Shown here: piece after piece, positions 1,003 through 60,530 of the stretch
How positions within the stretch are numbered: position 1 is the stretch's first letter
How the letters are laid out: the number at the start of each line of letters is the position of its first letter
Assembly (NCBI RefSeq): GCF_002846365.1
Contig: NZ_PJMW01000002.1
Span: forward strand, 5,518,001-5,582,000
Direction: 5' to 3'
DNA: 64,000 nt
Source: Nocardia fluminea
GTDB taxonomy: Bacteria > Actinomycetota > Actinomycetes > Mycobacteriales > Mycobacteriaceae
The notes under the pieces: model-generated
Seen by the model: only the letters and a program-made list of their open reading frames with translations
The model's database searches: none
What the model was told of the DNA's origin: nothing
Translations under genes and position numbers: made by a program

Positions 1003-1019
1003 TGAGAATCATATTCTCA
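1003..1019. promoter_or_regulatory. TetR-type operator upstream of tesB
   Basis: TGAGAATCATATTCTCA, a perfect 7-bp inverted repeat with a 3-base spacer. It overlaps the last codons of the upstream tetR gene and lies 31 bases before the thioesterase start on the minus strand. It is the best copy of a palindrome repeated at promoters across the window and the reference for the TetR consensus. Confidence 0.75.
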
Positions 1020-1668
1020 CGGTGCCGGTGACGCCGGCCGCGCAGAAATCCCAGACTTCCTCGGCGGTGATCGGTCGCATCACCGAATCGTCCTGCGCGC
1101 CACTGGACTGCGCGGTGAACATGACGGTCTGCATCGTCATCGCGGCGACCCGGCGGGGATTGAGGCCCGGCCGCAGTGTGCCCGCCGACGCGGCATCGGT
1201 CACCAGATCGACGAACAGCGACAACAGCGGCGCGTGCGCTGTCTTCACGTGGGCGGGATGGGTGACCAGCAGTCGTGGCGCGAAGTCGGTGAACAGGGGA
1301 TGGCGGTCTCGCGGGTCGGATCGGCACAGCGAGAACAGCAGTCGCACCGCGACCGCGAGCCGGGCCAGCGGCTCGGTCTCGTCCGCCGCGGCGGCGCGAA
1401 TCTGCTCGGCCGTGCGCAGCAGCGCGTCCTCGAACAGTGCCAGCAGCAACTCGTGCTTGCCGTCGAACTGCAGATAGAAGCTGCGCAGCGACTGGCGCGA
1501 CCGCTCGACCACCTCCTGCACGGTGAAGTCGGTACTGCCGTTCTCGGCGATGATCGCCTGCGCCGCGTCGAGAAACCGCTGCACCCGCTGCTCGGCGCGC
1601 ACTCGCGTGGACTTGATCGAGCGTTCCACCGCACGTTGTTTCCACGCGGGTTCCGCGCGCTCGCTCAC
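1009..1668 (-). CDS. TetR-family transcriptional regulator (paralogue 1)
   Basis: One-component DNA-binding repressor, probably responding to a CoA thioester or pathway acid. The 219-residue protein has an N-terminal helix-turn-helix at about residues 47-68 and a helical ligand domain. It is very similar along its whole length to the TetR protein encoded at 56058-56711; the recognition-helix segment (RSRQSLRSFYLQFDGKHELL) is identical in both, so the two should read the same DNA. GTG start, with a GTGA overlap with the preceding acyl-CoA dehydrogenase gene, so it is co-translated with the catabolic operon it probably controls. The perfect palindrome at 1003-1019 overlaps its 3' end. Ligand unknown. 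Confidence 0.9.
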   Translation of the reverse strand: MSERAEPAWKQRAVERSIKSTRVRAEQRVQRFLDAAQAIIAENGSTDFTVQEVVERSRQSLRSFYLQFDGKHELLLALFEDALLRTAEQIRAAAADETEPLARLAVAVRLLFSLCRSDPRDRHPLFTDFAPRLLVTHPAHVKTAHAPLLSLFVDLVTDAASAGTLRPGLNPRRVAAMTMQTVMFTAQSSGAQDDSVMRPITAEEVWDFCAAGVTGTVRI

Positions 1669-2456
1669 AGGTGCACCAGCCGTGCGGCCGCGCCCGCGGT
1701 GCGTACGGTCGCGCCCGCGGTGCGAACGAGTTCGCGGGAACTGCCGAGCAGTCCGTCCAGGACCAGAATCCGCCGGAGGTGGCGGTGCAGATCGTGTTCG
1801 GCGGTGAAGCCGATGCCGCCGAGGGTCTGCTGACAGTGCCGCGCGGTCGTCAGCGCGGCGCGGCCCGCCGCGGCTTTGGCGAGTAGGCAGCCGAGGTCGT
1901 CGGTGGCCGCCGCCAAAGTGGCTTCGGCGCCTTCGATGGCGACCAGGGTCTCGGCGAGCCGGTGGCGGACGGCCTGGAACGAGGCCACCGGACGACCGAA
2001 CTGGACCCGGTCGACCGCATGGTCACGCGCGAGGGTGAGCATCGCCCGGCTCGCACCGGTCAGCCACCAGCCCAGCGCGCGCCTGCCCGCGGCGAGCGGG
2101 ATCTCGGCACCTCGCGAGATCTGCCGGATCGGCAGTTCGGCATCCAGGATCGCGGAGTCCGCGAGCGGGGAGTCGCCGTGTTCCCACTGGACCCAGGTGC
2201 CCCCGGCGAAGGGGAGGGGAATCGGGCCGTCGGCGGGCAGGCCGGCGGCGGCGTGGATGACGTCGTTGAGCACCGGTGCGTGCGCACCGGTCTCGCCGAG
2301 CAGCCGAAAGACAAGGGGCACTGTGGAATCAGGCGCCTCGATGAGCATGTCGTGCCAACCCAGATCGGTGAGCGCGGTGTAGAGACCCGCACCGGAGGCG
2401 TCTCGCATCGTCTTGCGCAACGTCTGGGTGAGCAGGTCGAGTTCGGCGGCGTCCAC
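1665..2456 (-). CDS. Acyl-CoA dehydrogenase, short partner subunit (pair 1)
   Basis: The 263-residue product matches mainly the middle and C-terminal part of acyl-CoA dehydrogenases: VQFGRPVASFQAVRHRLAETL is the FAD-binding helix motif, followed by QQTLGGIGFTAEHDLHRHLRR. It is shorter than a usual ACAD (about 380) and lacks the ER residue pair that marks the catalytic Glu in its neighbour. It directly follows the full-length ACAD gene with a 3-base gap. This matches the alpha2-beta2 acyl-CoA dehydrogenases known from steroid side-chain catabolism, in which one subunit supplies the base and the other completes the FAD site. The partnership is inferred from adjacency and residues. GTG start at 2456. 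Confidence 0.82.
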   Translation of the reverse strand: MDAAELDLLTQTLRKTMRDASGAGLYTALTDLGWHDMLIEAPDSTVPLVFRLLGETGAHAPVLNDVIHAAAGLPADGPIPLPFAGGTWVQWEHGDSPLADSAILDAELPIRQISRGAEIPLAAGRRALGWWLTGASRAMLTLARDHAVDRVQFGRPVASFQAVRHRLAETLVAIEGAEATLAAATDDLGCLLAKAAAGRAALTTARHCQQTLGGIGFTAEHDLHRHLRRILVLDGLLGSSRELVRTAGATVRTAGAAARLVHL

Positions 2457-2459
2457 GGT

Positions 2460-3548
2460 TCACTCTTTTCCCAGGTCGAGCAGGCGGCGCGCGATGATGT
2501 TGCGCTGGATCTCGGCGGTCCCGCCGTAGATCGTCGCCGCGCGGGAGTACAGGAATTCCGCGCGCAACGGTGAGTCGGCGAGTTCGATGACACCGGGCGA
2601 CAGGTCGCGGACGGTGTCGAACAACTGCTGTTCGGCGGTGGCGAGCAGCACCTTGTCGATGGAGGTCTCCGGCCCGAGCCGTCCGCCCGCGGCCAGCCGC
2701 TCCTGTGTGGCCAGTGACCGGCAGCGGATCGTGTGCAGGGCGAGATAGGCGGCGCCGAGATCGGCATCGTCGCCGTCGGCGGTCCGCGCGAGCAACTGGT
2801 CGAAACGTGTGTAGAGATAGGCGATCCGGTGCCAGAAACAGGTGGACCGTTCGTGCGGGAGGAGATCCATCGCCACCCGCCAGCCGTCGCCCGGACGGCC
2901 GAGCATCCGGTCGGCGGGGACCACCACGTCGTCGAAGTAGACCTCGGCGAACTCGTCGATGCCGTGCATGGTGCGCAACGGCCGCACGGTGATACCGGGG
3001 GAGTCCATGTCGACGAAGAACGCGGTGATCCCGTCGTGGCCGATTCCGGTGCGGGTCAACAGGACACAGCGTGAGGAGTACTGGGCCAGGCTGGTCCACA
3101 CCTTCTGGCCGGAGACCACCCAGTGGTCACCACGGGGTTCCGCTCTGGTACTGAGCGAGGCGAGATCGCTGCCGGAGCCGGGCTCGGAGAACCCCTGGCA
3201 CCACTGCTCGCGCCCGCTGAGCAGCCGCGGCACCATCTCCGCGGCCAGCCCAGGGGCGGCGTAGGAGATCATCGTCGGCGCGAGCACCTCGATCATCGAA
3301 TAGATGCCGGGCTCGGCCAGGTCGCGGGTGGCGACCTCCTCACCGAGAATCGCGCGCAGTACCGCGGGCCCGCCGAGACCACCCACCTCGGCGGGCCAGC
3401 CGTAGCGCATCCAGTCCGCGTCGTAGAGCGCGCGCCGGACTCTGGCCAATTGCGCGACCTGCGCGTCGAGCGAGTGGTCGGGTCCCGCGGACAGGTCGTT
3501 GTCGTCGAGCCAGGACCGCAGGCCGGCCCGGAAGTCGGCGCGGTTCAC
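2460..3548 (-). CDS. Acyl-CoA dehydrogenase, catalytic subunit (pair 1)
   Basis: FAD-dependent alpha,beta-dehydrogenation of an acyl-CoA. The 362-residue protein has the substrate/flavin loop WCQGFSEPGSGSDLA at residues 116-130, a Glu233 in LLPHERST at the position used as base by IVD/LCAD-type enzymes, and the closing GGTAEIQRNIIARRLL. An upstream ATG in frame would add about 55 residues unlike the family, and it would run through the preceding gene; I chose the GTG at 3548, which gives a GTGA overlap with the NTF2-like gene and a normal ACAD N-terminus. Followed at once by its probable partner subunit at 1665-2456. Confidence 0.88.
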   Translation of the reverse strand: MNRADFRAGLRSWLDDNDLSAGPDHSLDAQVAQLARVRRALYDADWMRYGWPAEVGGLGGPAVLRAILGEEVATRDLAEPGIYSMIEVLAPTMISYAAPGLAAEMVPRLLSGREQWCQGFSEPGSGSDLASLSTRAEPRGDHWVVSGQKVWTSLAQYSSRCVLLTRTGIGHDGITAFFVDMDSPGITVRPLRTMHGIDEFAEVYFDDVVVPADRMLGRPGDGWRVAMDLLPHERSTCFWHRIAYLYTRFDQLLARTADGDDADLGAAYLALHTIRCRSLATQERLAAGGRLGPETSIDKVLLATAEQQLFDTVRDLSPGVIELADSPLRAEFLYSRAATIYGGTAEIQRNIIARRLLDLGKE

Positions 3549-3961
3549 GCACTCGGTCGTTCGAAGGCGTGCGGGCGGCCCGAATCGTGGTCGCCGTTGC
3601 GGCGGATGAAGGTCATGGCCCTGGTGCGCAGCCGCCAGCCCGCGTCGGTGCGTGCGTAGGTATCGCTGTAGTAGCCGATGCGCATGTCGTGGGTCGACTG
3701 CTCGACGAAGCACAGCGGCTGGGTGCCGCTCGCGGTGTCGCCGTCGATCTCGAGTGCCGGAGTTCCGGTGAGGAACAACCCCTTCGGCGCCGCGGCGACG
3801 AGATCGGAGAACTCGTCGAGCGGATAGGTGTCGCCGAAGGCGCTGTAGTTGCCGTCGGGGGTGAACACCGAGACCAAGCCCTCGATGTCACCTTTGGTGA
3901 TGGTGACCGCGTACCGTGCGAGCAGCTGTTCGAGCTCGATCACGTCCTCAGTTCTGGACAA
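3545..3961 (-). CDS. NTF2-like/SnoaL-like protein
   Basis: A 138-residue protein with the NTF2/SnoaL cone-fold pattern: an N-terminal helix pair (EDVIELEQLLARYAVTITKGDIEGLVSVFTPDG), a central strand with FVEQSTHDMRIGYYSDTYARTDAGWRLRTRAMTFIRR and no transmembrane segment. Family members include hydratases, isomerases such as ketosteroid isomerase, ring-hydroxylating dioxygenase beta subunits and accessory proteins. Here it could be a lyase or isomerase acting on an oxygenated intermediate, or a small partner of the Rieske enzyme in the same operon. Start is a TTG at 3961 overlapping the amidohydrolase by 14 bases; a GTG at 3943 is the alternative. Exact function not assigned. Confidence 0.78.
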   Translation of the reverse strand: MSRTEDVIELEQLLARYAVTITKGDIEGLVSVFTPDGNYSAFGDTYPLDEFSDLVAAAPKGLFLTGTPALEIDGDTASGTQPLCFVEQSTHDMRIGYYSDTYARTDAGWRLRTRAMTFIRRNGDHDSGRPHAFERPSA

Positions 3962-5159
3962 AGATTTTCCCGCCTTTCATCACGAACCGCACCCGCTGGG
4001 TGACGGTGATGTCCTGGAGTGGGTCGCCGGGTACCGCGATGATGTCGGCCAGCAGTCCCTCGGCCAGCCGGCCGCGGTCGGTGACATCGATCAGCTCGGC
4101 GGCCGTGACGGTCGCGGCGCGCAGCACGGCCAACGGGCTCATGCCACGCTCGACGAGCGCGACCAGCTCGTCTGCGTTGCGGCCGTGCGGGATCGCGGGG
4201 GCATCGGTGCCCACCGCGATCTTCACCCCGGCCTTGTAGGCAGCCAGCACCGAGGTGCGGGCGCGCGGGAACATCTGCGCCGCCTTGGCCTGCAGTTCCG
4301 GCGGCGCCTTGGACACATCCATGGCGTCGGCCAGACGCGTGGTCGGCACCAGGTAGGTGCCGCGTTCGACCATCAGTGCGATGGCGTCGTCGTCGATCAG
4401 GAATCCGTGCTCGATGCAGTCGATTCCGGCTTCGACGGCGGCGCGCACCGCGTCGGCGCCGTGGGTGTGCGAGGCGACCCGCAGCCCGCGCCGATGCGCC
4501 TCGTCCACGATCGCCCGCAGTTCCTCGGACGAATAGTGTTGCGCCCCCGGCGCTCCGGTCAGCGACATGACCCCGCCGGAGACGCAGACCTTGATCAGTT
4601 GCGCGCCGTGCTTGATCTGGTACCGGACCGCCTTGCGTACCTCGTCGACACCGTTGGCGATGCCTTCCTCGATGCTCAGTTCCAGCACATGCGGGGCGAA
4701 CGCGGCGAACATCGTCGGATCGAGATGTCCGCCGGTCGGGGTGATCGCGTGCCCGGCGGGTACGACGCGCGGGCCGTCGACCCAGCCGGCGTCGATGGCT
4801 TTGCCGAGCGCCACGTCGAGCAGATATCCGCCGGTCTTGACGAACAGTCCGAGGTTGCGCACGGTGGTGAACCCCGCCCGCAGCGTACGGCGGGCATTGC
4901 CCACCGCACGCAGCATGCGCAGCGGCGGATCGTCTTGAACGCTGGAGGCCAGCCCGGTTTCCCCGCGACCGCCCATCAGGAGGTTGACCTCCATGTCCAT
5001 CAGGCCGGGCAGCAGGACGGCGTCACCGAGATCGATGATCTCGCCTTCGGGGTCGCCGCCGAGGCCGACGATCCGATCACCCTCGATCCGGACGACCGCT
5101 GGTCGGACGATCTCGCCGGTATCGAGGTCGAGATACCCGGCGGCCAACAGCGTCAGCAT
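3948..5159 (-). CDS. Amidohydrolase-superfamily protein lacking the HxH metal motif
   Basis: A 403-residue TIM-barrel hydrolase of the imidazolonepropionase/prolidase-like amidohydrolase group. The later metal/active-site positions are present: Lys in LIKVCVSGGV, His in VASHTHG, His in CIEHGF and Asp in VGTDAPAIPHG. The first-strand motif, normally PGLIDxHxH, reads PGLMDMEVNLL, so both canonical histidines are replaced by Glu and Asn. The barrel may bind one metal, use a different ligand set, or have lost hydrolase activity. It lies between the small Rieske-linked protein (2-base gap) and the NTF2-like gene, so it probably acts on a ring-opened or lactone/amide intermediate; this is inference. 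Confidence 0.85.
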   Translation of the reverse strand: MLTLLAAGYLDLDTGEIVRPAVVRIEGDRIVGLGGDPEGEIIDLGDAVLLPGLMDMEVNLLMGGRGETGLASSVQDDPPLRMLRAVGNARRTLRAGFTTVRNLGLFVKTGGYLLDVALGKAIDAGWVDGPRVVPAGHAITPTGGHLDPTMFAAFAPHVLELSIEEGIANGVDEVRKAVRYQIKHGAQLIKVCVSGGVMSLTGAPGAQHYSSEELRAIVDEAHRRGLRVASHTHGADAVRAAVEAGIDCIEHGFLIDDDAIALMVERGTYLVPTTRLADAMDVSKAPPELQAKAAQMFPRARTSVLAAYKAGVKIAVGTDAPAIPHGRNADELVALVERGMSPLAVLRAATVTAAELIDVTDRGRLAEGLLADIIAVPGDPLQDITVTQRVRFVMKGGKIFVQN

Positions 5160-5161
5160 GA

Positions 5162-5488
5162 TCAGACCACCGGCTCCCGGATGAGGTGGACCATGGCGGC
5201 ACCGGAGTCGGGCACTCGCGCCTGCTTCCAGACCTCCACGGGGAAGGACACGTTCACCAGCGACTGCATCAGGTGCAGCAGCGCGCGGGCGTCCTCGGGC
5301 AGGTCGTCGAGCGGGAACTTGTCGCAGTAGGCGATCGCGTCCTCCAGACGGGGAAACGCGATGTCGTAGAACTCCTGCATCTCCGGCATGGCCGAGGCCA
5401 GACGTTTGGCGTAGCGCTGGGGCTCGGTGGGCAGCACCCAGTCGGCGAACCGTTCCAGATCGGCGAATTCAGTGGGCAGCAGTGGCAT
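5162..5488 (-). CDS. Small conserved-looking protein linked to Rieske oxygenase
   Basis: I do not recognise this 108-residue protein. It is soluble, acidic and mostly helical by composition, with no Cys pair, signal peptide or membrane segment. A strong AAGGAG ribosome binding site seven bases before the ATG, and a 20-base overlap with the end of the Rieske oxygenase gene, argue that it is real and translated in coupling with the oxygenase. A role as a small subunit or accessory factor of the oxygenase is possible but not shown by the sequence. Confidence 0.75.
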   Translation of the reverse strand: MPLLPTEFADLERFADWVLPTEPQRYAKRLASAMPEMQEFYDIAFPRLEDAIAYCDKFPLDDLPEDARALLHLMQSLVNVSFPVEVWKQARVPDSGAAMVHLIREPVV

Positions 5489-6740
5489 CTCGGTACTCCT
5501 TGACCTTGTCCTTGGCGACCTTGTGCAGGTGGCGCAGCAAGATCTCCTGGTCGTTGAGGGGGAAATCGGACACGACGCGGGTGGCCAGCATCGTCTGGGT
5601 GGCTTCGAGGGTGTTCGCGTCCTGCAACGCGTACTCCTTGAAGGTGACCGCGGCCAGCTCCTGGCCCAGGCGTTCGCGCGCGGTCTTCGGGGGGACGAAG
5701 TACAGGTTCGCCTCGAAGATGTGCTTGTTCACCGCGGTCGGCCAGTAGTGGTAGGTGAGGTACCAACCGGGCTCCCAGAACAGCAGCGACATGTTCGGGA
5801 AGATCTCGAATTCGTCGACACCCCAGGCCCGGTGGCGGGCGGGGTTGATCCCCTCGGGCAGCGAGTCCAGGCCCTCGATGTCGGGCTTGTCCCACGGCCC
5901 GAACAGACCGCTGCGCAGGACGCGTTCGATCGGCTTGACCATGTTCAGGTCCTTGGGCGGGGCCATGCCGCCCCACGAGGAGATCATCGAATGTGGGCTC
6001 TGCAACTCGTAGTGCAGGGCCTCGTAGCCGACGCCGGCCAGCTTGTCGGCCTCGTCCTTGACCGCCTGCTTCATGTGCAGGATCGGCGCGTGATAGAACT
6101 CGGCGAACGCGTCGATGAACAGCTTCCAGTTGCTGCCGATCTCGGCGCGGTAGCTGTAGACCTCGGTGAACTCGTGGAACGGGTATCCCTCGACACCGGT
6201 GACGAGAGTGCCCAGGTAGTCGGTGAGCGACGGGGCGTCCTCGTCGAGGTTGACGAAGATGAACCCCTCCCACACCTCGCAGCGCACCGACTTCAAGCCG
6301 TAGAGCTGCTTGTCGAGGTCGAAGAACTCCTTCTCCTGCTGGACGAAGTTCACCTCGCCCTCGAGGCTGTAGCGCCAGGCGTGGTACTTGCAGGTGAACT
6401 GGCGGCAGGTGCCCGAGGTCTCCTCGTTCGGGAAATCGTCCCAGACGAGCTTGTTGCCGCGGTGGCGGCAGATGTTGTGGAACGCGCGCACCACCTCGTC
6501 GGTGCCCTTGGCGATGATGAGCGAGGTGCCGACCGAGGGCAGTTCCCTGGTGAAGTAGCTGCCCACGCGCGGAAGTCGTTCGACGCGACCGATGTTGAGC
6601 CAGGTCTTCTTGAAGATGGCGTTGCGCTCGTCCTCGTAGAAGTCCGGGTCGATCGAGTCGGTGTAGTCGACCGGCTCGGTACCGAGCTCGGGATAGTGTT
6701 CCGTCCAGCTACCCGCGGCCGGTTTGGTGAAGTGGGACAA
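5469..6740 (-). CDS. Rieske non-heme iron oxygenase, large subunit
   Basis: Catalytic subunit of an aromatic-ring-hydroxylating-type oxygenase or related monooxygenase. The 423-residue protein carries the Rieske [2Fe-2S] ligands Cys91, His93, Cys117 and His120 (CRHRG and CKYHAW) and a mononuclear iron site in DAFAEFYHAPILH, with His217 and His222. No ferredoxin or reductase gene is nearby, so electrons must come from proteins encoded elsewhere. It follows the CMD-family gene and precedes the small 108-residue gene in the same operon. Start is a TTG at 6740, with GGAAAGG upstream; no better in-frame start is visible. Confidence 0.92.
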   Translation of the reverse strand: MSHFTKPAAGSWTEHYPELGTEPVDYTDSIDPDFYEDERNAIFKKTWLNIGRVERLPRVGSYFTRELPSVGTSLIIAKGTDEVVRAFHNICRHRGNKLVWDDFPNEETSGTCRQFTCKYHAWRYSLEGEVNFVQQEKEFFDLDKQLYGLKSVRCEVWEGFIFVNLDEDAPSLTDYLGTLVTGVEGYPFHEFTEVYSYRAEIGSNWKLFIDAFAEFYHAPILHMKQAVKDEADKLAGVGYEALHYELQSPHSMISSWGGMAPPKDLNMVKPIERVLRSGLFGPWDKPDIEGLDSLPEGINPARHRAWGVDEFEIFPNMSLLFWEPGWYLTYHYWPTAVNKHIFEANLYFVPPKTARERLGQELAAVTFKEYALQDANTLEATQTMLATRVVSDFPLNDQEILLRHLHKVAKDKVKEYRDATAAH

Positions 6741-6744
6741 GGGG

Positions 6745-7278
6745 TTACCTTTCCGTTTGTTCGACTTCGACGCCGAAGGTGTTGAAAGCCATGGCCAACA
6801 TGCCGTAGCCGCCGACCGTGAAGACCAGATCCATGCACTGCCGCTCGTCGAGGTGCGCGCCGAGGGCGGCCCAGCTCGAATCGGACAGGTTCGATGTCGT
6901 GTCGAGTTCGTCGGTCGCGTCGAAGATCACGCGGTCGAACTCGTCGGTGGGAATGCCGCCCCGCGCCGCCGCGATGTCGGCGGCTGACACGCCGGACTCG
7001 CCGGCCATCTCCACGTGATGGGCCCACTCGTAGGCGCAGCCGCGTCGATGGGCGACGCGCAGGATCGCCAGTTCGCGCACTCGCGCCGGCAGCGTCGACC
7101 GGAACAGCAGGTGTACACCCAGACTCAGGTAGGCCTTCGTCAGGTCGGGGTGGCGAACCAGTGTGGCCAGGGCGTTTCCGGCGCCTTCCGGGTTCTGCCG
7201 GTCCCGGGGCAGCAGCCCGGACAGGGCGCGCTGAACCTGCTCGTCCCATTGGTCCGCCGGCAGCGGGGGTAGGCGCAT
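6745..7278 (-). CDS. Carboxymuconolactone decarboxylase (CMD/AhpD-fold) family protein
   Basis: A 177-residue all-helical CMD-fold protein. The core motif LRVAHRRGCAYEWAHHVEMA has one Cys and a Tyr-Glu-Trp-x-x-His pattern rather than the Cys-x-x-Cys of AhpD peroxidases, so a decarboxylase/lactone-processing or unknown role is more likely than peroxidase activity. A related protein with the same CGYEWAQH core is encoded at 24035-24643, the last gene of the oxidative operon. This is the promoter-proximal gene of the left-hand minus operon; its ATG has GGAGG six bases upstream, and the TetR-type operator at 7298-7314 lies 20 bases before the start. Confidence 0.87.
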   Translation of the reverse strand: MRLPPLPADQWDEQVQRALSGLLPRDRQNPEGAGNALATLVRHPDLTKAYLSLGVHLLFRSTLPARVRELAILRVAHRRGCAYEWAHHVEMAGESGVSAADIAAARGGIPTDEFDRVIFDATDELDTTSNLSDSSWAALGAHLDERQCMDLVFTVGGYGMLAMAFNTFGVEVEQTER

Positions 7279-7297: not shown

Positions 7298-7314
7298 GGA
7301 GAATCACATTCTCA
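7298..7314. promoter_or_regulatory. TetR-type operator of the left-hand minus operon
   Basis: GGAGAATCACATTCTCA, the GAGAAT-N3-ATTCTC palindrome with one outer-arm mismatch. It lies just upstream of the CMD-family gene (start 7278) and would cover its promoter, placing the Rieske/amidohydrolase/ACAD/tetR operon under the same regulator as the other blocks. Confidence 0.7.
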
Positions 7315-7366
7315 CATTTGAACTGTAAGGTTTCCACGGGTTGGTCACATAGTCAACGGGTCATTG

Positions 7367-7395
7367 ATTCTCTTTGGATGAGAAGCTAGTTTTCA
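7367..7395. promoter_or_regulatory. Three-half-site TetR operator, 7.4-kb plus operon
   Basis: ATTCTC at 7367-7372, seven bases, then TGAGAAGCTAGTTTTCA at 7379-7395. The same ATTCTC-N7-GAGAA geometry recurs at other plus-strand promoters. It lies about 40 bases before the start of the small Cys protein gene that heads the operon. Confidence 0.62.
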
Positions 7396-7435: not shown

Positions 7436-7744
7436 ATGACCGCAGTGCCACTGCGTCCCGGTGATCAACTCGCCAGCACCGTCTGCGGTACGCGGGTGGT
7501 GGTGATCCGGGTACCGGCCGACCGGACGCCCGCGATCACCTGCGGCTCGAGCCCGATGGTCCCCGCCGCCACCGCCCGCACGGTCGCCGCGAACGGCGCA
7601 CCGCGCACGTTGATCGGCAAGCGCTATGTGGATGCGGCCGAGGACGTCGAACTGCTGTGCACCGCGCCGGGCGCGGGCACGTTGAGCTGTGACGGCGAGC
7701 CGATGACGATCAAGGCGGCCAAAGCGCTGCCAGCCTCGGACTGA
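7436..7744 (+). CDS. Small cysteine-containing protein, unknown function
   Basis: A 102-residue soluble protein that I do not recognise with certainty. It has four cysteines spread over the chain (in STVCGTR, AITCGSSPM, VELLCTAP and TLSCDGEP), two of them followed by Gly or Asp-Gly, which could hold a metal or form disulfides. It has no signal peptide or membrane helix. A GGAAGGGAGA ribosome binding site precedes the ATG, and the gene heads the operon containing ACAD, SDR, CaiB, crotonase, thiolase and ACAD, directly after a TetR-type operator. A chaperone, regulator or acyl-carrier accessory role is possible; none is shown. Confidence 0.75.
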   Translation: MTAVPLRPGDQLASTVCGTRVVVIRVPADRTPAITCGSSPMVPAATARTVAANGAPRTLIGKRYVDAAEDVELLCTAPGAGTLSCDGEPMTIKAAKALPASD

Positions 7745-7757
7745 TGGGGGAATCGAC

Positions 7758-8936: not shown

Positions 8937-8937
8937 A

Positions 8938-12908: not shown

Positions 12909-12924
12909 GCACGAGGAGACATCG

Positions 12925-15242: not shown

Positions 15243-15259
15243 TGAGAACAACACTCTCG
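15243..15259. promoter_or_regulatory. TetR-type operator of the hydrolase operon
   Basis: TGAGAACAACACTCTCG, three mismatches from the TGAGAAT-N3-ATTCTCA consensus. It lies 9 bases upstream of the small ORF start, in the divergent interval that also carries the plus-strand operator at 15398-15425. Confidence 0.5.
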
Positions 15260-15397: not shown

Positions 15398-15425
15398 ATT
15401 CTCTAATATGAGAATCAGATTATCA
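15398..15425. promoter_or_regulatory. Three-half-site TetR operator before thiolase/DUF35 operon
   Basis: ATTCTC at 15398-15403, six bases, then TGAGAATCAGATTATCA at 15409-15425 (one mismatch). It ends 19 bases before the start codon of the thiolase-like/DUF35 gene. The spacing to the extra half-site is six instead of the seven seen at the other sites. Confidence 0.68.
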
Positions 15426-23220: not shown

Positions 23221-23264
23221 GTGAGACTCCAATGCCCGGTCCGAGGTCCTGCGGCGCTGATGTT

Positions 23265-23293
23265 ATTCTCTGAAATCAAGAATGACAATCTCG
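23265..23293. promoter_or_regulatory. Degenerate TetR-type operator, divergent promoter
   Basis: ATTCTC at 23265-23270, seven bases, then CAAGAATGACAATCTCG at 23277-23293 (four mismatches from the 17-bp consensus). It lies between the divergent ligase and crotonase genes, 18 bases before the crotonase start. The half-site spacing matches the better copies, which is the main reason to list it. Confidence 0.45.
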
Positions 23294-32142: not shown

Positions 32143-32191
32143 AGCGAATTCCTCGGTGGGATGCGGTGTTTCGGGTGGGCGGGGCACGGGC

Positions 32192-37353: not shown

Positions 37354-37358
37354 CCATT

Positions 37359-46551: not shown

Positions 46552-46576
46552 ATCCTATTAAGGATAGCAATGCTTG
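46552..46576. promoter_or_regulatory. GntR-type operator before the AcuI operon
   Basis: Minus-strand copy CAAGCATTGCTATCCTT (46576 down to 46560, one mismatch from the 37.36-kb copy) running into a palindrome ATCCTA-TT-AAGGAT at 46552-46565. It lies between the SDR stop and the AcuI start, 40 bases before the latter, so it should control the AcuI-MaoC-ligase genes. Confidence 0.75.
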
Positions 46577-53393: not shown

Positions 53394-53418
53394 GTTGTTT
53401 CCCTCTCTTGAAATCATC

Positions 53419-53447
53419 ACTCTCTTGATGTGAGAATAATGTTCTCA
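53419..53447. promoter_or_regulatory. Three-half-site TetR operator overlapping a start codon
   Basis: ACTCTC at 53419-53424, seven bases, then TGAGAATAATGTTCTCA at 53431-53447. The last base of the palindrome is the first base of the ligase ATG. It serves the divergent SDR and ligase genes; if the ATG is right, the ligase mRNA would have almost no leader. Confidence 0.75.
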
Positions 53448-54883
53448 TGAACATTGGCATGATCCTAGACATGGCCGCCTCGGCCGGCAGTCGATCGGTG
53501 ATCACCGTCGGCGACCGCTCGCTGTCTGCGGCAGACCTGCTCGACCACGCCCGGCGGGCGGCTCCGCGCTTGCGCGAGCACTCCGCGGTGCTGTATCTGG
53601 GCGCGAACCATCTGGCCTATCCGGTCGCGTTGTTCGGCGCCGTGCTGGCCGGTGTGCCGTTCGTGCCGCTGAACTACCGGCTCGGTGACGCGCAGCTGGG
53701 GGCGCTGCTCGAACGCCATCCCGGCGCGCTGATCCTGCGACCGGAGGACCTCGACGACCTGGTGACGGACGACCCCGCCCGCCCCGGCGCGCCGGAACTG
53801 CCGACGCCGTGGGACGCGGACTCCGTGGCGGTGATCCTCTACACCAGCGGAACCACCTCCGCGCCCAAGGCGGCGTTGCTGCGGCACCGGCACCTGATGG
53901 CCTACCTGCTCAACACCGTGGAGTTCGGTGCCGCCGCGAGCACCGACGCGACGCTGGTATCGGTGCCGCCGTACCACATCGCGGGGCTGACGAACCTGCT
54001 CTCGAACCTCTACGCCGGACGCCGGGTGGTCTATCTGTCCGCGTTCGACCCCGCCGAGTGGCTGGCGACCGTCCGCCGGGAACAGATCACCCAGGCGATG
54101 CTGGTGCCGACCATGCTGGCCCGCATCGTCGCCGAGGTCGACGGACCCGACGCGGCCACCCCCACCCTGGCGACGCTGGCCTACGGGGGCTCGCGCATGC
54201 CGCGTCCCGTGCTGGACCGCGCGCTGCGGGTGTTCCCCGAGACCGGCTTCGTCAACGCCTACGGGCTCACCGAGACCGCGTCCTCCGTCGCGGTCCTCGG
54301 TCCGGAGGATCACCGCGTCGCCGCCACCTCCGACGACCCGCTCGTGCGCGAGCGTCTCGGCTCGGTGGGCCGTGCTCTCCCCGGCATCGAGTTCGAGATC
54401 CGCAGTGCCGCGGGCGAACCCGTCGCGGTCGGGGAGACCGGACTGGTCTTCGTCCGTGGCGAGCAGATCTCGGGCGAATACGGCGGCCGCAGCGCCCTCG
54501 ACGCTGACGGTTGGTTCCCCACCGGCGATCTCGGCAAGCTCGACGACGCCGGCTACCTGTTCATCGAGGGCCGCGCCGACGACACGATCATCCGGGGCGG
54601 GGAGAACATCGCACCGGCCGAGATCGAGGACGTGCTCCTCGAATACCCCGGCATCACCGAGGCCGCGGTCGTCGGCGTGCCCGACCCGGAATGGGGTCAG
54701 CGCCTGGTCGCGGTGGTCGTCGGGGTCGGCGACGAAGCGCGGATCAAGCAGTGGGTCAAAGACCGGCTGCGCTCGTCCAAGACGCCCGACGCCATCGTGT
54801 TCCGCACCGAGCTGCCCAAGACCGACACCGGAAAACTGTTGCGACGCAATCTTGTTGCCGATTTGGAGGATACCCATGCCTGA
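53447..54883 (+). CDS. Acyl-CoA synthetase (AMP-binding)
   Basis: A 478-residue AMP-forming ligase. The P-loop ILYTSGTTSAPKAALLRHR, YGLTETASS, WFPTGDLGKLDDAGYLFIEGRADDTIIRGGENIAPAEIED (parts FPTGDLGKLDDAGYL and DDTIIRGGENIAPAEIED) and the catalytic Lys in PKTDTGKLLRRNL are all visible. The ATG at 53447 gives MNIGMILDMAA, a plausible family start but inside the operator; ATG 53459 is the alternative. The next gene, a thiolase, overlaps by eight bases. Confidence 0.9.
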   Translation: MNIGMILDMAASAGSRSVITVGDRSLSAADLLDHARRAAPRLREHSAVLYLGANHLAYPVALFGAVLAGVPFVPLNYRLGDAQLGALLERHPGALILRPEDLDDLVTDDPARPGAPELPTPWDADSVAVILYTSGTTSAPKAALLRHRHLMAYLLNTVEFGAAASTDATLVSVPPYHIAGLTNLLSNLYAGRRVVYLSAFDPAEWLATVRREQITQAMLVPTMLARIVAEVDGPDAATPTLATLAYGGSRMPRPVLDRALRVFPETGFVNAYGLTETASSVAVLGPEDHRVAATSDDPLVRERLGSVGRALPGIEFEIRSAAGEPVAVGETGLVFVRGEQISGEYGGRSALDADGWFPTGDLGKLDDAGYLFIEGRADDTIIRGGENIAPAEIEDVLLEYPGITEAAVVGVPDPEWGQRLVAVVVGVGDEARIKQWVKDRLRSSKTPDAIVFRTELPKTDTGKLLRRNLVADLEDTHA

Positions 54884-56021
54884 AGCAGTCATCGTCTCCG
54901 CGCTACGCACACCCATCGGGACCGCACGGAAGGGGACATTGCGCGACACCGACGCCTTCACGCTGGCCGATCATGTAGTCGCCGCCGTGGCCGACGGCCT
55001 CGATCCGAGCCGAATCGACGACGTCGTTCTCGGGGAGGGCCGCTATGGCGGCGGGGTGCTGGCCAGGCACGCCGCGGTCACCGCCGGGTTGACCACAGTG
55101 CCCGGCCTCGCCACGAACCGGCACTGCGCGGCGGGGATGGCGGCGGTGCAGTCCGCCGCGGCGAGCATCCGCGCGGGCATGGACCAGCTCGTCATCGCCG
55201 GGGGTGTGAACTCCGATTCCACCGCGCCGCGCCAGCGTTTCCGGGTGGGCGAGGACGAATGGCTCGAGCCGTGGACCTCACCGAGTCACCCCGATCGCCC
55301 GGATGCGCCGAATCTGGACATGTCCATCACCGTCGGCTGGAACGCGGCGGTCAAAGCCGGTATCTCGCGCGCGGAGATGGACGCCTGGGCGCTGCGCTCG
55401 CACCGCAACGCCATCGCCGCGATCGACGAGGGGCGCTTCGCCGACGAGATCGTGCCGATCAAGACTCCGCACGGCCTGTTCGAGGTCGACGAGCACCCGC
55501 GGCGCGACACCACGCTGGAGAAGTTGGCCGCGTTGAAGGTCCTGCACCCGGAGATCGAGGGTTTCAGCATCACGGCAGGCAATGCCGCGGGCGCCAACGA
55601 CGGCGCCGCGGCCCTGGCCATCGCCAGCGATCGTCTCGGGCTGCCCGCACTCGGTGTGATCCGGGCCTGGGCATCGGTCGGGGTCGACCCCGCCGTCACG
55701 GGGCTGGCGCCCATCGAGGCGATCGCGAAAGCTGTTTCCCGGGCGGGTATTTCGCTGTCCCAGGTGAGTCTGTTCGAAATCAACGAGGCGTTCGCCGTGG
55801 TGCCACTGGCCACGATCAAGGCACTCGACATCGATCCGGACCTGGTCAATGTCAGCGGCAGTGGATGCTCGCTCGGTCATCCGGTCGCGGCGACCGGTGC
55901 CAGGATGATCGCCACCCTGGTGCACGAATTACGCCGCCGCGGTGGCGGTTTCGGGATCGCCGCGCTGTGTGCCGGCGGCGGAATGGGTTCGGCGACAGTC
56001 ATCGAGGTGGCCGCGCCCTGA
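54876..56021 (+). CDS. Acetyl-CoA acyltransferase (thiolase)
   Basis: A 381-residue thiolase with the nucleophile Cys in TNRHCAAGMAAVQ near residue 88, NEAF in LFEINEAFAVVPL, the His in SLGHPVAATGARM and the second Cys in AALCAGGGMGSATV, i.e. the full active site. ATG 54876 with GGAGG upstream overlaps the ligase end; a longer frame runs through the ligase gene. It may finish the beta-oxidation steps started by the ligase, together with the divergent SDR. Confidence 0.93.
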   Translation: MPEAVIVSALRTPIGTARKGTLRDTDAFTLADHVVAAVADGLDPSRIDDVVLGEGRYGGGVLARHAAVTAGLTTVPGLATNRHCAAGMAAVQSAAASIRAGMDQLVIAGGVNSDSTAPRQRFRVGEDEWLEPWTSPSHPDRPDAPNLDMSITVGWNAAVKAGISRAEMDAWALRSHRNAIAAIDEGRFADEIVPIKTPHGLFEVDEHPRRDTTLEKLAALKVLHPEIEGFSITAGNAAGANDGAAALAIASDRLGLPALGVIRAWASVGVDPAVTGLAPIEAIAKAVSRAGISLSQVSLFEINEAFAVVPLATIKALDIDPDLVNVSGSGCSLGHPVAATGARMIATLVHELRRRGGGFGIAALCAGGGMGSATVIEVAAP

Positions 56022-56057: not shown

Positions 56058-56711
56058 TCAGGCCTTGGCGAACCCGAACGCGCAGAAGTCCCAGACTTCA
56101 CCCGCGGTGATCGGGTGTGCGGAGTCCTCGTCGGTACCGCCCGCCGACTGCGCGGTGAACATGACCGTCTGCATCACCACGGCGGCCATCCGGCGCGGGT
56201 TGAGGTCATCGCGCAGCGCTCCCGCGTGCTTGGCCTGTTCCATCAGGTCGGTGAACAGCGCCAGCAGTGGCGCGTGCGCGATCTTGACCTGTGCGGGATG
56301 TGAGACGAGCAGTTGCGGCGCGAAATCGGTGAACAGCGGCCGCTGCGCGACCGGGTCGGGCCTGCACAGCTCGAACAGCAGCTCCACCGTGACCCGCAGC
56401 CGGTCCAGCGGGTCGGTCTTGCCCTCGGCGGCCGCCGCCAGCTGATCCGCGGTCCGGCCGAGCGCGTCCTCGAACAGGGCGAGCAACAGCTCGTGCTTAC
56501 CGTCGAACTGCAGGTAGAAGCTGCGCAGTGATTGACGCGAGCGGTCGACCACTTCCTGGACGGTGAAGTCGGTGGTGCCCTTCTCGGTGATGATCGCCTG
56601 CGCCGCGTCGAGGAATTTCTGGACCCGCTGCTCGGCGCGCAGTTTCGCCCCGCGGATGGACCGCTCGACGGCCCGCTGTTTCCAGGCGGGCTCTTCGCTG
56701 ACGCTGGTCAC
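56058..56711 (-). CDS. TetR-family transcriptional regulator (paralogue 2)
   Basis: A 217-residue TetR repressor, close paralogue of the protein encoded at 1009-1668; both share AWKQRAVERSI, an identical recognition-helix block and the ends ITAxEVWDFCA. The shared DNA-contact region suggests one operator for both. GTG start with GGAGG upstream. It is divergent from the ACAD-pair operon; the operator at 56819-56847 lies 107 bases from its own start, nearer the other gene. Two near-identical regulators at opposite ends of a cluster suggest duplication, with possible division of ligands. Confidence 0.9.
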   Translation of the reverse strand: MTSVSEEPAWKQRAVERSIRGAKLRAEQRVQKFLDAAQAIITEKGTTDFTVQEVVDRSRQSLRSFYLQFDGKHELLLALFEDALGRTADQLAAAAEGKTDPLDRLRVTVELLFELCRPDPVAQRPLFTDFAPQLLVSHPAQVKIAHAPLLALFTDLMEQAKHAGALRDDLNPRRMAAVVMQTVMFTAQSAGGTDEDSAHPITAGEVWDFCAFGFAKA

Positions 56712-56818
56712 GGGTGCCTCCGTCCTCGGTTACGTGTGCAGAACATGCATGCACTGTACCGGAGAACGTCATATCCAATGGTGGTCAGCCCTGCGTGTCC
56801 GCGATCTTGGAGACTATT

Positions 56819-56847
56819 ACTTTCTTTTGATGAGAATGCTATTCTCC
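56819..56847. promoter_or_regulatory. Three-half-site TetR operator before ACAD pair 4
   Basis: ACTTTC at 56819-56824, seven bases, then TGAGAATGCTATTCTCC at 56831-56847 (one mismatch). It lies 39 bases before the ACAD start, with the AGGAGG ribosome binding site between. Confidence 0.72.
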
Positions 56848-56886: not shown

Positions 56887-57885
56887 ATGCTCGTGGAGTT
56901 CGACTCCGATCAACGGCTGTGGCAGGAAACTGTCCGCGCCGTTCTCGCCAAGGAGTGTCCGCCCGCACTGATTCGCGCGGTCGCCGACCAGGATGCGGAT
57001 CCGGTCCCGCTGTGGCAGACCTATGTCGATCTGGGCTGGACCGAATTGACCGACGCCACCGACGCGGTGGAACTGGCCATCGTTCTCGAGGAGCTGGGCC
57101 GGGCGACCGACCCCACGCCCTACCTGGCGACGATGAGCCAGTTCGCCCCGCTCGCAGCGGAATTCGCGCAGAGTGGGCGCAGCGGGACGGCAGTGTTCGC
57201 CGGTGTGACGGTGCGGCGCGACGGCGCGGACTGGGTACTCGACGGCACCGCGCACCATGTCCTCGACGGTGATCGCGCGCAGCAGTACGCGGTCGTCACC
57301 GATGTGGGCGTGTTCGTCGTGGAGGCGGGTGCGGTGATCGCCCGGCGCACAGCGGTGTTCGACCCGGTGCTGCACCTGGCCGACGTGAGCTTCGCGGGGG
57401 TGCGGGTGAGCGACGATCGTCGCGTCGCCGCCGTACCCGAGCGGGCGCGGCACCTCGCGCTGACCGGTCTGGCGCTGACCACGGTCGGTGCGTGTCAGCG
57501 CATTCTGGACCTGGTGCTCGAGCACGTGCGCACGCGTCAGCAGTTCGGCGTCGCGCTCGGCTCGTTCCAGGCGGTCAAACACAAGGCCGCGGACATGCAG
57601 ATCGCCATCGAACGGGCCAGGGCGCTGGCCTATTTCGCGGCGCTGACCATCGCCGCCGATGATCCGCGCCGCCGGATCGCGGCCTCGATGGCCAAGGCCG
57701 CCGCCGGTGAATGCCAGTCCCTGGTGTTCCGCCACGGCGTGCAATTGTTCGGCGGCATGGGTTTCACCTGGGAAAACGACCTGCAATTCGCGCTGAAGCG
57801 GGCCAAGGCCGGCGAGCTGCTGCTCGGTGGCGCGCACACGCATCGGGCGCTGATCGCCGAGGAGTACCGTGCAACTGACTTTTGA
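56887..57885 (+). CDS. Acyl-CoA dehydrogenase, partner subunit (pair 4)
   Basis: A 332-residue ACAD-like protein with RTRQQFGVALGSFQAVKHKAADMQI and LFGGMGFTWENDLQFALKR. The region of the catalytic Glu reads TVGACQRILDLV, without the ER pair. Here the partner-type subunit comes first and the catalytic one second. ATG 56887 has AAGGAGG at good spacing; an in-frame upstream extension would include the operator and the reverse TetR promoter. The next gene overlaps by 17 bases. Confidence 0.85.
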   Translation: MLVEFDSDQRLWQETVRAVLAKECPPALIRAVADQDADPVPLWQTYVDLGWTELTDATDAVELAIVLEELGRATDPTPYLATMSQFAPLAAEFAQSGRSGTAVFAGVTVRRDGADWVLDGTAHHVLDGDRAQQYAVVTDVGVFVVEAGAVIARRTAVFDPVLHLADVSFAGVRVSDDRRVAAVPERARHLALTGLALTTVGACQRILDLVLEHVRTRQQFGVALGSFQAVKHKAADMQIAIERARALAYFAALTIAADDPRRRIAASMAKAAAGECQSLVFRHGVQLFGGMGFTWENDLQFALKRAKAGELLLGGAHTHRALIAEEYRATDF

Positions 57886-59047
57886 CGCCGACGTCGAGTC
57901 CTTCCGGGCCGAGTTCGTGGCCTTCCTGGACGAGAACCTGCCCGATGCCGCGGTCGCCGGAGCGGACCGGGCCCGTTCGAGCGCCGACATTCCCGGCTGG
58001 GCTCGCGAGTGGCAGCGCCGCCAATTCGACAGCGGCTGGCTGCTTCCGGGTAACGCCCCTGAATACGGTGGTCGCAACGCGACGCTCGTACAGCAGTACG
58101 TGCACCTGGAAGAGCTGTCCAAGCGGCACATGTATCACAGCTTCAACCCCCAGGGCCTCGGCATCATCGCCGCCTCGCTGCTGTCCTTCGGCACCGAGGA
58201 ACAGAAGAAGCACTGGGCGGTGCGGATCCTGCGCGCCGAGATCACCGCCGCGCTGGGCATGAGCGAACCGGGTGCCGGGTCCGACCTGGCCGGGCTGCGC
58301 ACCCGCGCGGTGCTCGACGGTGATCACTTCGTCGTCAACGGCCAGAAGGTCTGGACCTCCGGGGCCCACGACGCCGATGTGCTGCTCACCTTCGTGCGCA
58401 CCGACCCCGACGTGCCCAAGCACAAGGGAATCAGCGTGCTGCTGATCCCGACCGACACCCCCGGGGTGACGCGGCGGCCGTTCGCCTCGATCTGTGGACC
58501 GCACGACCTCGACTTCAACGAGGTGTTCTTCGAGGACGTCGTGGTGCCCGCGGAGAATCTGGTCGGACCGCTGCACGGCGGCTGGGGCGTGGCCAACGGT
58601 TCGCTCGGGCACGAGCGCACGTTGTTGTGGCTGAGCTTCGCCGACCGGCTGCGGGAACTGATCGAGGACTTCCGGCCCGAGACCGTGCTCGAGCGCGACC
58701 GCTTCGCGACCATGGTCATGGACAACCAGGCCTTGCGCCTGCTGGGCTCGGCGGCGCTGGCCCGCGCGGCCCGCGGCGACCAGGACGTCGCCGCGCTGTC
58801 GGTACTCAAGGTGTTCGGCTCCGAAGCCGTGCAGAGCGCCGCGGAGCAGACGCTGCTCGCGGCGGGCGCGGACGGCCTGCTCCATCCCGCCGTCACCGCA
58901 CCGTTCAATCCGCTGAATCTGGACAACTTCTCGTGCAGCTGGTTCGAACGCTACGCGCGCAGTTTCGCGGGCACCATCGCCGGCGGCACGTCGGAAATCC
59001 AGCGCAACATCATCGCCGAGCGTGTGCTCGGTCTCCCCCGGAGCTGA
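57869..59047 (+). CDS. Acyl-CoA dehydrogenase, catalytic subunit (pair 4)
   Basis: A 392-residue ACAD with ALGMSEPGAGSDLAGL near residues 128-143, Glu249 in LGHERTLL as the candidate catalytic base and GTSEIQRNIIAERVLGLP at the end. GTG start at 57869 preceded by GAGGAG. Together with the upstream partner it should form a heteromeric ACAD, the fourth such pair in the window. Followed by a crotonase gene with a 10-base gap. Confidence 0.9.
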   Translation: MQLTFDADVESFRAEFVAFLDENLPDAAVAGADRARSSADIPGWAREWQRRQFDSGWLLPGNAPEYGGRNATLVQQYVHLEELSKRHMYHSFNPQGLGIIAASLLSFGTEEQKKHWAVRILRAEITAALGMSEPGAGSDLAGLRTRAVLDGDHFVVNGQKVWTSGAHDADVLLTFVRTDPDVPKHKGISVLLIPTDTPGVTRRPFASICGPHDLDFNEVFFEDVVVPAENLVGPLHGGWGVANGSLGHERTLLWLSFADRLRELIEDFRPETVLERDRFATMVMDNQALRLLGSAALARAARGDQDVAALSVLKVFGSEAVQSAAEQTLLAAGADGLLHPAVTAPFNPLNLDNFSCSWFERYARSFAGTIAGGTSEIQRNIIAERVLGLPRS

Positions 59048-59057
59048 GGAGCTCGCT

Positions 59058-59840
59058 GTGTACATCCGCTACGAGGTCGCCGACAAGATCGCGACCATCA
59101 CCCTGGATCGGCCGCAGGCGGCCAACGCCCAGAACTCGGACCTGCTCGACGAACTCGACGCCGCGTGGACCCGCGCCGCCCAGGACCCCGACGTCGCGGT
59201 GATCGTGTTGCGCGGCGAGGGCAAGCACTTCTCGGCCGGGCACGATCTGAAGGATCGCTGGCCCTCCGCCGAGGACATCACGCTGGAGTGGATCTACCAG
59301 AACGAGAGCAGGCGCTACCTCGAGTACTCCCTGCGCTGGCGCAACGTGCCCAAGCCGTCGATCGCCGCGGTCCAGGGGCGGTGCATCGCCGGGGGACTGC
59401 TGCTGTGCTGGCCGTGCGACCTGATCGTCGCCGCCGACGACGCGCTGTTCTCCGATCCGGTCGTGCTCATGGGCATCGGCGGTGTCGAATACCACGGGCA
59501 CACCTGGGAACTGGGCGCGCGCAAGGCCAAGGAGATCTTGTTCACGGGCCGCGCGGTGACCGCGACGGAGGCCGAACAGGTCGGCATGGTGAACAAGGTG
59601 GTGCCCCGCGCGGAACTCGACGAGCAGACCCGCGCGCTCGCCACCCGGATCGCCGCGATGCCGTCGTTCGGCTTGCGGCAGGCCAAACGCGCGGTCAACC
59701 AGACGCTCGACGTCCAGGGCTTCTACGCCGCCATCCAGTCCGTCTTCGACGTGCACTCGACCGGACACGGGAACGCGTTGAGCGTGAACGGCTTTCCGAT
59801 CCTGATGGCGCTGGACGAGATGAAACAGAAGATCGAGTGA
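59058..59840 (+). CDS. Enoyl-CoA hydratase/isomerase family protein
   Basis: A 260-residue crotonase-fold protein with IATITLDRPQAANAQN, HFSAGHDLKDRWP and GRCIAGGLLLCWPCDL. The catalytic stretch reads DPVVLMGIGGVEYHGHTWELG, with no Glu at the first hydratase position and His/Tyr near the second, so its chemistry is uncertain. GTG 59058 with GAGGAG at the right spacing is the start; an earlier in-frame ATG at 59022 lies inside the ACAD gene. Third gene of the ACAD pair 4 operon. Confidence 0.87.
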   Translation: MYIRYEVADKIATITLDRPQAANAQNSDLLDELDAAWTRAAQDPDVAVIVLRGEGKHFSAGHDLKDRWPSAEDITLEWIYQNESRRYLEYSLRWRNVPKPSIAAVQGRCIAGGLLLCWPCDLIVAADDALFSDPVVLMGIGGVEYHGHTWELGARKAKEILFTGRAVTATEAEQVGMVNKVVPRAELDEQTRALATRIAAMPSFGLRQAKRAVNQTLDVQGFYAAIQSVFDVHSTGHGNALSVNGFPILMALDEMKQKIE

Positions 59841-59869: not shown

Positions 59870-60370
59870 ATGCGAAATACACTGCGCCGCAAGGCGATGG
59901 CCTGCTGCGGTCTCGTGGCGATCGCCGTCGTCACGGTCACCGGCTGCGGCTCCGACGACGAGGCTTCGAGTAGTTCGCCGTCCACGTCGACGGTGACCAC
60001 GTCCGCCGCGGCCGCGGCGGCCGACCCGGCCGCGGTCAAGTCCATCACCGACGCCTACGTGTTGTTCTTCGACGGTAAGGCGGCGGCGGACAAGAAGGTC
60101 GCGGTGGTCGAGAAGGGTGCCGCGTTCACCCCGCTGTTGCAGGCACAGGCGGCCAACCCGCAGGCGCAGACCACCTCGGTCACGGTGGGCGGGGTGAAGT
60201 TGATCGACGCCGACAACGCCGACGTCACCTATTCGCTGCTGATGAACGGCACCCCGGTGCTGCCCGATCAGACCGGTCAGGCGGTGCGTGAGGGCGGCCA
60301 GTGGAAGGTGGCCGCGGCCACCTACTGCGCGTTGATGGCGATTCAGGGCGGTTCCTCGCCTGCTTGTTGA
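59870..60370 (+). CDS. Mtb12-like secreted lipoprotein
   Basis: A 166-residue exported lipoprotein: a signal peptide (RRKAMACCGLVAIAVVTVTGC) with lipobox VTGC, Cys26 as the likely lipidated residue, a Ser/Thr/Ala-rich spacer, then a domain (KSITDAYVLFFDGKAAADKKVAVVEKG, GQWKVAAATYCALMAIQGG) resembling the Mtb12/CFP-2 low-molecular-weight antigen family of mycolic-acid bacteria. Function unknown. It follows the crotonase gene by 29 bases with a GAGAGG ribosome binding site and is ended by a strong hairpin, so it may be the last gene of the catabolic operon. Confidence 0.85.
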   Translation: MRNTLRRKAMACCGLVAIAVVTVTGCGSDDEASSSSPSTSTVTTSAAAAAADPAAVKSITDAYVLFFDGKAAADKKVAVVEKGAAFTPLLQAQAANPQAQTTSVTVGGVKLIDADNADVTYSLLMNGTPVLPDQTGQAVREGGQWKVAAATYCALMAIQGGSSPAC

Positions 60371-60385
60371 GGAAACCGGAACAGT

Positions 60386-60417
60386 ATGGCGCCCAGCGGT
60401 TTTCCGCTGGGCGCCAT
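60386..60417. terminator. Hairpin terminator after lipoprotein gene
   Basis: Perfect 14-bp inverted repeat ATGGCGCCCAGCGG (60386-60399) and CCGCTGGGCGCCAT (60404-60417) with a TTTT loop, 16 bases after the lipoprotein stop. It isolates that operon from the transporter genes. Confidence 0.85.
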
Positions 60418-60501
60418 TCGTGTTTCGCGGTGTGCGCCATCAGCCGTCGAACGGCGCCGCCGGGGGTGCGGCGGCACATCTTTCGTGAAAGGGTTAACTT
60501 T

Positions 60502-60530
60502 ATTCTCTTTGAATGAGAAGATGATTTCCG
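60502..60530. promoter_or_regulatory. Degenerate three-half-site TetR operator before transporter
   Basis: ATTCTC at 60502-60507, seven bases, then TGAGAAGATGATTTCCG at 60514-60530 (four mismatches). The left two half-sites keep the usual geometry. It lies 80 bases before the substrate-binding protein gene. Confidence 0.5.

Follow-up and report, generated by a model that had tools for sequence, protein, structure and literature searches.

We analysed a 64,000-nt stretch of the Nocardia fluminea genome, referred to below as the window (positions 5518001 to 5582000 of 8,057,701 bases in four contigs). It contains a large catabolic gene cluster dependent on coenzyme A (CoA), two genes for TetR-type proteins, and ten copies of the palindrome TGAGAAT-N3-ATTCTCA. 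These sites are placed before operon heads, many of them at a fixed spacing from a second dyad, and they are coupled to the TetR across genomes. It is highly probable that the palindrome is the operator of a conserved, autoregulated TetR repressor, which is present here as two paralogues; binding, repression, dimer number and ligand are what we infer from these patterns. The two putative repressor genes are:

1009 to 1668, minus strand: TetR1, repressor paralogue that closes the CMD-Rieske-amidohydrolase-acyl-CoA dehydrogenase operon as its last gene; 73% identity to TetR2
56058 to 56711, minus strand: TetR2, repressor paralogue, divergent to the acyl-CoA dehydrogenase pair; TetR_N Pfam match

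The ten candidate operators are listed with their mismatches to TGAGAATNNNATTCTCA and, where given, the E-value from R2, a model of double sites described below:

981 to 1019: before the thioesterase gene (67 to 972); 0 mismatches, perfect dyad at 1003 to 1019 and weak second dyad at 981 to 997
7298 to 7314: before the minus-strand CMD-Rieske operon; 1 mismatch, second dyad not clear
7357 to 7395: weak double operator ahead of the acyl-CoA dehydrogenase operon on the plus strand; 3 mismatches (7379 to 7395), second dyad score -8.3
15243 to 15259: weak operator in the divergent region of the hydrolase/thiolase pair; 3 mismatches, second dyad not clear
15409 to 15425: centre 28 bp before the OB-fold/thiolase operon at 15445; 1 mismatch, no second dyad at 22 bp
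23255 to 23293: double operator between a CoA ligase (21676 to 23232) and an enoyl-CoA hydratase (about 23307); primary dyad (23277) with 4 mismatches, second dyad score 2.8
36200 to 36216: isolated weaker site before the minus-strand operon at 36152; 2 mismatches, no second dyad
53409 to 53447: double operator between SDR6 and the CoA ligase/thiolase operon; 1 mismatch (53431), R2 E = 3.5e-8
56809 to 56847: double operator in the divergent promoter of tetR2 and acyl-CoA dehydrogenase; 1 mismatch (56831), R2 E = 6.1e-9
60492 to 60530: double operator ahead of the gene for the binding protein of an ABC transporter (60611); primary dyad (60514) with 4 mismatches, second dyad score 10.8

All ten 17-mers were found where the original prediction had placed them. 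When up to three mismatches were allowed, the window gave eight matches, all among these ten, and 100 shuffled sequences gave a mean of 0.35 (standard deviation 0.59, maximum 2). The observed palindrome set was confirmed to be real. The sites at 23277 and 60514 carry four mismatches each, as do two more places in the window (1330 and 23222), and the palindrome alone is insufficient to define either listed site; 23277 and 60514 each have a second dyad exactly 22 bp upstream and lie ahead of an operon head. It had also been claimed that the sites lie mostly upstream of operon heads and not within genes. Consistently, eight of ten overlap no gene of our draft map, which was made with a simple codon-position score and hand correction (start codons are approximate) and in which the intergenic share is 4.3%. 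The site at 53431 overlaps the ATG of the ligase gene by one base, and the site at 1003 overlaps the end of tetR1 by 11 bases. The ATG of this CoA ligase, at 53447, coincides with the last base of the palindrome (53431 to 53447), leaving no space for a ribosome-binding site; possibly the transcript is leaderless, or the start codon lies further on.

A weaker second dyad was detected at exactly 22 bp from the first one, both in relatives and in the own genome. After contexts with more than 65% identity had been dropped, 78 contexts from the relatives were left. At the 22-bp offset 44 of these passed a score of -10, against an average of 0.6 at other offsets, and the mean score was -12.5 at +22 versus about -46 elsewhere. 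The relatives' matrix was then applied to the 13 own sites (the ten above and three outside the window): 22 was the best of 73 offsets, nine of 13 sites passed there, and the next offset passed once. The consensus of the second element, GAnAGT-N3-AnTCTC, is itself a dyad with an equal 3-bp gap. In the window, the sites at 53431, 56831, 60514 and 23277 are clearly double, and those at 1003 and 7379 weakly double. In the unthinned loci, the second dyad accompanied 53 of 64 sites upstream of tetR versus 12 of 39 just past the tetR stop codon. These results indicate that in many cases the operator extends beyond the palindrome that had been described, to a double dyad of 39 bp. Two dyads at a fixed spacing, the feature by which two-dimer TetR operators are recognized, were found here with the 22-bp offset. 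Since 22 bp is about two helical turns, both dyads face the same side of the helix, and two dimers on one helix face would be the natural reading, as a putative stoichiometry.

The distribution of the motif over the 8.06-Mb genome was analysed as well. With up to two mismatches, 11 places were found, eight of which lie within 5512879 to 5601390 (88.5 kb); the three remote ones fall inside open frames that look coding (650, 605 and 373 aa), and the reversed pattern gave no match. To avoid circularity, two models were built solely from the sites of other species: R1 from single sites (69 of 94 distinct sites) and R2 from double sites (43 of 83), in both cases picked by hand for spread. In the own genome at E <= 10, R1 gave 12 matches representing six places, all within 5512878 to 5601391, and R2 gave ten matches, all within 5512875 to 5601397, the best being 56831, 53431 (E-values above) and 1003 (0.0029). 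A whole-genome matrix scan had been proposed together with the original prediction, and in this form it confined the matches to a stretch of about 88.5 kb around the window. The evidence comes from this clustering of R1 and R2 matches and not from single E-values. A local scan of 134 kb found more sites beyond the window: at 5512857/5512879, where a CoA ligase/acyl-CoA dehydrogenase operon follows and a Fer2-type reductase is divergent to it; at 5591918/5591940, before an aldehyde dehydrogenase/CoA-transferase operon; and at 5601374, before an amidohydrolase gene. The claim of a window-wide set fell short in extent, as the set exceeds both window ends and reaches about 90 kb in total.

The motif and the TetR also occur together in relatives. 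We collected 80 loci (943 kb), the best of 404 relatives; they are non-independent and mostly from Nocardia, with 17 named Mycobacterium or Mycolicibacterium. At up to two mismatches these loci hold 154 sites, present in 75/80 loci, while seven control patterns gave 0, 7, 0, 0, 0, 0 and 2 sites, the seven coming from the pattern that retains the inner AGAAT-N3-ATTCT. In four loci (L045, L080, L093, L097) no other window gene was recognisable at 50% identity, and three of these four still have a site with up to three mismatches. We then used 200 genomes drawn evenly from the order, with the TetR called at E <= 1e-40 and the palindrome GAGAATNNNATTCTC required to be exact. The palindrome was present in 32 genomes and the TetR in 22. 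All 22 TetR-positive genomes carry 2-10 palindromes; among the 178 TetR-negative ones, 168 carry none, nine carry one and one (G159) carries two. The association of at least two copies with the TetR was strong (Fisher 2e-28, kinship ignored), and the reversed pattern occurred in one genome out of 200. Within the same family, seven of eight TetR-negative genomes have no copy. In eight genomes the majority of sites lie around tetR. In G154, a genome from a different genus within this family, five of six exact sites adjoin homologues of genes in the cluster, whereas none of the tested genes has a homologue beside the sixth; four of the sites are at the same positions as here, namely at the ligase/dehydrogenase operon with the divergent reductase, SDR6/thiolase, tetR/dehydrogenase and the amidohydrolase.

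The placement of the sites in the 80 loci was counted for genes located by tblastn at >=50% identity, taking sites of up to three mismatches within 300 bp upstream (loci unthinned). A site precedes tetR in 77/80 loci, ACAD7 in 41/42, tesB in 39/45 and SDR6 in 25/27. The smaller counts are 5/5 for CMD (with 300 bp upstream), 6/7 for the ligase, 4/8 for the binding protein and 1/1 for the Rieske gene. No site precedes the operon-internal genes unk108 (0/11), amidohydrolase (0/14), ACADlarge (0/25), ACADsmall (0/37), thiolase (0/21) and lipoprotein (0/31), nor ECHc (0/5). The placement was mixed for ACAD8 (10/40) and ECHd (13/50), probably because either gene heads the divergent operon in some species. 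ACAD7, ACAD8 or ECHd is the divergent neighbour of tetR in all 17 named mycobacterial loci.

The two TetR proteins had been reported to share a recognition helix, and this proved correct: they are 73% identical over 207 residues, and the recognition-helix stretch is identical. TetR2 passes PF00440 (TetR_N helix-turn-helix; E = 8e-8, 32.4 bits versus a cut-off of 24). The next homologues found in the own genome are partial, with at most 34% identity, and a Nocardia salmonicida protein is 97-98% identical to TetR2. Across the relatives the TetR recognition helix is almost invariant in 80/80 loci, a count to be read with the locus search itself having queried the neighbouring peptide. With the shared helix, the lack of a closer homologue found in the genome and the co-occurrence over 200 genomes, the proposal that this pair are the putative readers of the motif gained support. 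In a tree of 52 TetRs, the end branch of TetR1 is the longest by far (0.69 versus a median of 0.048) with the helix unchanged, so TetR1 may diverge fast or may have been acquired. One contig of a metagenome-assembled genome labelled Acidobacteria (L088) also encodes this TetR (78%); the tree places it among mycobacterial sequences, and the contig is probably mis-binned. Plasmid records gave four distant TetRs, each of which covers less than 80% of the query.

The putative target operons and genes in the window, with draft extents for the second and third, are:

67 to 972, minus strand: TesB-like thioesterase
1665 to 7278, minus strand: CMD protein, Rieske oxygenase, 108-aa protein, amidohydrolase and two acyl-CoA dehydrogenase subunits
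7436 to 14073, plus strand: small open reading frame, acyl-CoA dehydrogenase, SDR, CoA-transferase, hydratase, thiolase and acyl-CoA dehydrogenase
15445 to 17810, plus strand: OB-fold protein and thiolase
52629 to 53420, minus strand: SDR6, a conserved target
53447 to 56021, plus strand: CoA ligase and thiolase
56890 to 59840, plus strand: acyl-CoA dehydrogenase pair and enoyl-CoA hydratase
60611 to 64000, plus strand: substrate-binding protein (Peripla_BP_6), followed by a frame that by eye resembles a permease

The small open reading frame after the 7379 operator (7436-7741, 102 aa) was translated and carries no family assignment. The cluster contains CoA ligases, paired acyl-CoA dehydrogenases, hydratases, thiolases including the OB-fold/thiolase pair, two Rieske oxygenases, a Baeyer-Villiger-type monooxygenase and a binding-protein-dependent transporter. 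This gene set appears to be that of a CoA-dependent breakdown of a bulky acid. The best matches of the acyl-CoA dehydrogenase are Tcur3483 and 4x28, which we take to be heterotetrameric steroid side-chain enzymes. The monooxygenase (30301-32187), of Baeyer-Villiger type and adjoining a Rieske oxygenase, scores 671 bits to the NCBIfam model PtlE (pentalenolactone D synthase; cut-off 1100). The matches in NCBIfam, Pfam and PDB did not reach a substrate assignment, and the oxygenases match the general Rieske family.

A separate motif surrounds another regulator gene in the window:

36502 to 37353: gntR gene

The motif AAGTATTGYTATCCTT is found at 36156-36171, 37360-37375, 37384-37399 and, inverted, at 46560-46575, where 0.06 copies were expected; the copies stand at the heads of the operons 36152 (minus), 37379 (plus) and 46542 (minus). 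With up to two mismatches the genome holds six matches, four of them around gntR, and the reversed pattern gave one. AAGTATTGYTATCCTT is probably the GntR operator. From 23.3 to 53.4 kb, the weaker site at 36200 is the only TGAGAAT site at up to four mismatches. The uptake, oxygenase and beta-oxidation blocks had been joined into one regulon in the original prediction, and this part did not hold: a single TetR-only regulon across the window was rejected in view of that lone site and the four AAGTATTGYTATCCTT copies around gntR. The same two observations suggested that the oxygenase and beta-oxidation blocks probably answer to two regulators instead of one, and as seen in this genome the arrangement is read as a putative GntR-controlled module within a TetR-controlled cluster.

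In the proposed mechanism, one TetR dimer would bind the strong 17-bp dyad, and at many promoters a second dimer would occupy the weaker dyad centred 22 bp away, so that about 39 bp of the promoter or leader would be covered. Repression would result from this coverage. Besides its own gene and the acyl-CoA dehydrogenase pair divergent to it, the repressor would target about a dozen more operons or genes over about 90 kb, for uptake, CoA ligases, Rieske oxygenase, beta-oxidation and thioesterase functions. Release would be brought about by a pathway metabolite, most likely the acyl-CoA of a ring-bearing or bulky substrate; the acyl-CoA ligand is a guess from the pathway setting.

Several observations weigh against this mechanism. 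Four of ten window sites (7298, 15243, 15409, 36200) lack a clear second dyad. Two of the 80 loci (L085 and L097) have no site at up to three mismatches, no target was assigned to 41 of the 194 sites in relatives, and several sites in other genomes are far from tetR. A palindrome is present in 10 of the 178 TetR-negative genomes, twice in one of them. The R1 matches are individually weak (E 0.05-1.3), and the first-look candidates scored were 150 of 417 for R1 and 150 of 313 for R2. Finally, co-occurrence by itself does not distinguish the TetR from other proteins that the cluster encodes. Another regulator in or near the cluster could read the palindrome while the TetRs merely travel along, and both the gntR gene in the window and the conservation of further cluster genes next to the TetR would fit with this. 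However, gntR is surrounded by its own distinct motif, the palindrome precedes tetR in 77/80 loci, including three of the four without other recognisable window genes, and the almost invariant recognition helix in 80/80 loci points to the TetR; we regard another reader as very improbable.

That the TetR is an activator, or responds to a signal other than a catabolic intermediate, is also unlikely. Some members of the family do activate, and FasR, a named activator in NCBIfam, gave a weak match (29.7 bits, cut-off 330), but the site centres lie 8 to about 50 bp ahead of the start codons at several operons, which is a blocking position, and the annotated targets are chiefly degradation enzymes and uptake. 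A less remote alternative, though still a doubtful one, is that a single dimer binds per operator and that the second dyad is a promoter element or a half-site echo. The second dyad is degenerate and rarer just downstream of tetR (12/39) than upstream (53/64), as such an echo could be. Yet its consensus also forms a dyad, again with a gap of 3 bp, and the relatives and, independently, the own genome both give an offset of exactly 22, which speaks against this alternative.

The proposed control resembles that by KstR and KstR2 in the steroid catabolism of mycobacteria and Rhodococcus (PMC8228715), where TetR-type proteins likewise act on a large CoA-dependent catabolic cluster and the operators are palindromes. 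In PMC8228715 the operators of KstR and KstR2 are quoted as TNNAACGTGTTNNA and AAGCAAGNNCTTGCTT. Neither fits our aligned sites, which show GAGAAT-N3-ATTCTC; the original prediction had not recognised the motif as that of KstR or KstR2, in agreement with our comparison to the operators so quoted. The solved structures match TetR2 at E = 0.003-0.01 (KstR2 at 0.0034, KstR at 0.0096), and orthology with either was rejected. ScbR, FadR, FasR and BetI, the best NCBIfam models, share the TetR-family DNA-binding domain, but both TetRs score 22-42 bits against curated cut-offs of 118-330, and these identities were also rejected.

By its setting, the nearest named candidate is KstR3 of Mycolicibacterium neoaurum, described in PMC10398937 as a TetR-type negative regulator of a CoA-dependent operon whose products include a thiolase/aldolase, an acyl-CoA dehydrogenase and a protein of DUF35 type. 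According to this paper, kstR3 lies together with atf1, chsH4 and chsE6 in one operon, and seven genes were significantly altered when kstR3 was deleted. In contrast to this operon, tetR is here divergent to an acyl-CoA dehydrogenase/hydratase operon, as in the 17/17 named mycobacterial loci. By gene context, identity with KstR3 seems unlikely, in a comparison that covers the 17 named mycobacterial loci, with M. neoaurum outside the 80 loci. As for the architecture, QacR is described in PMC4482099 as a tetramer on a 28-bp palindrome, and the motifs of EthR and Mce3R as larger, with multiple copies. Like the QacR and EthR operators so described, the present one exceeds one dimer site; unlike them, it consists of two separate 17-bp dyads with centres 22 bp apart, known from sequence. 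None of the literature matches listed describes the motif or the regulator in the text they offer; the 11 new motifs for mycobacterial TetRs in PMC4482099 are given as logos, which stood outside this comparison and may hold an earlier description.

In conclusion, our results assign a precise candidate operator and a candidate regulator to a large catabolic cluster found repeatedly in Nocardia and mycobacteria. The operons that bear a site define the gene set of the pathway independently of the substrate, and the regulator could be used as a reporter to find the inducer. The 22-bp double operator, if true, would be a simple system for cooperative TetR binding. We see about even chances that this is a new regulon of Nocardia and non-tuberculous mycobacteria, in which one highly conserved TetR, bound as side-by-side dimers on a 39-bp double dyad, switches on a complete degradation pathway for a bulky ring-bearing acid, with a nested GntR module in N. 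fluminea. The same arrangement in related Nocardia and mycobacteria points to a common control circuit for the breakdown of the compound.

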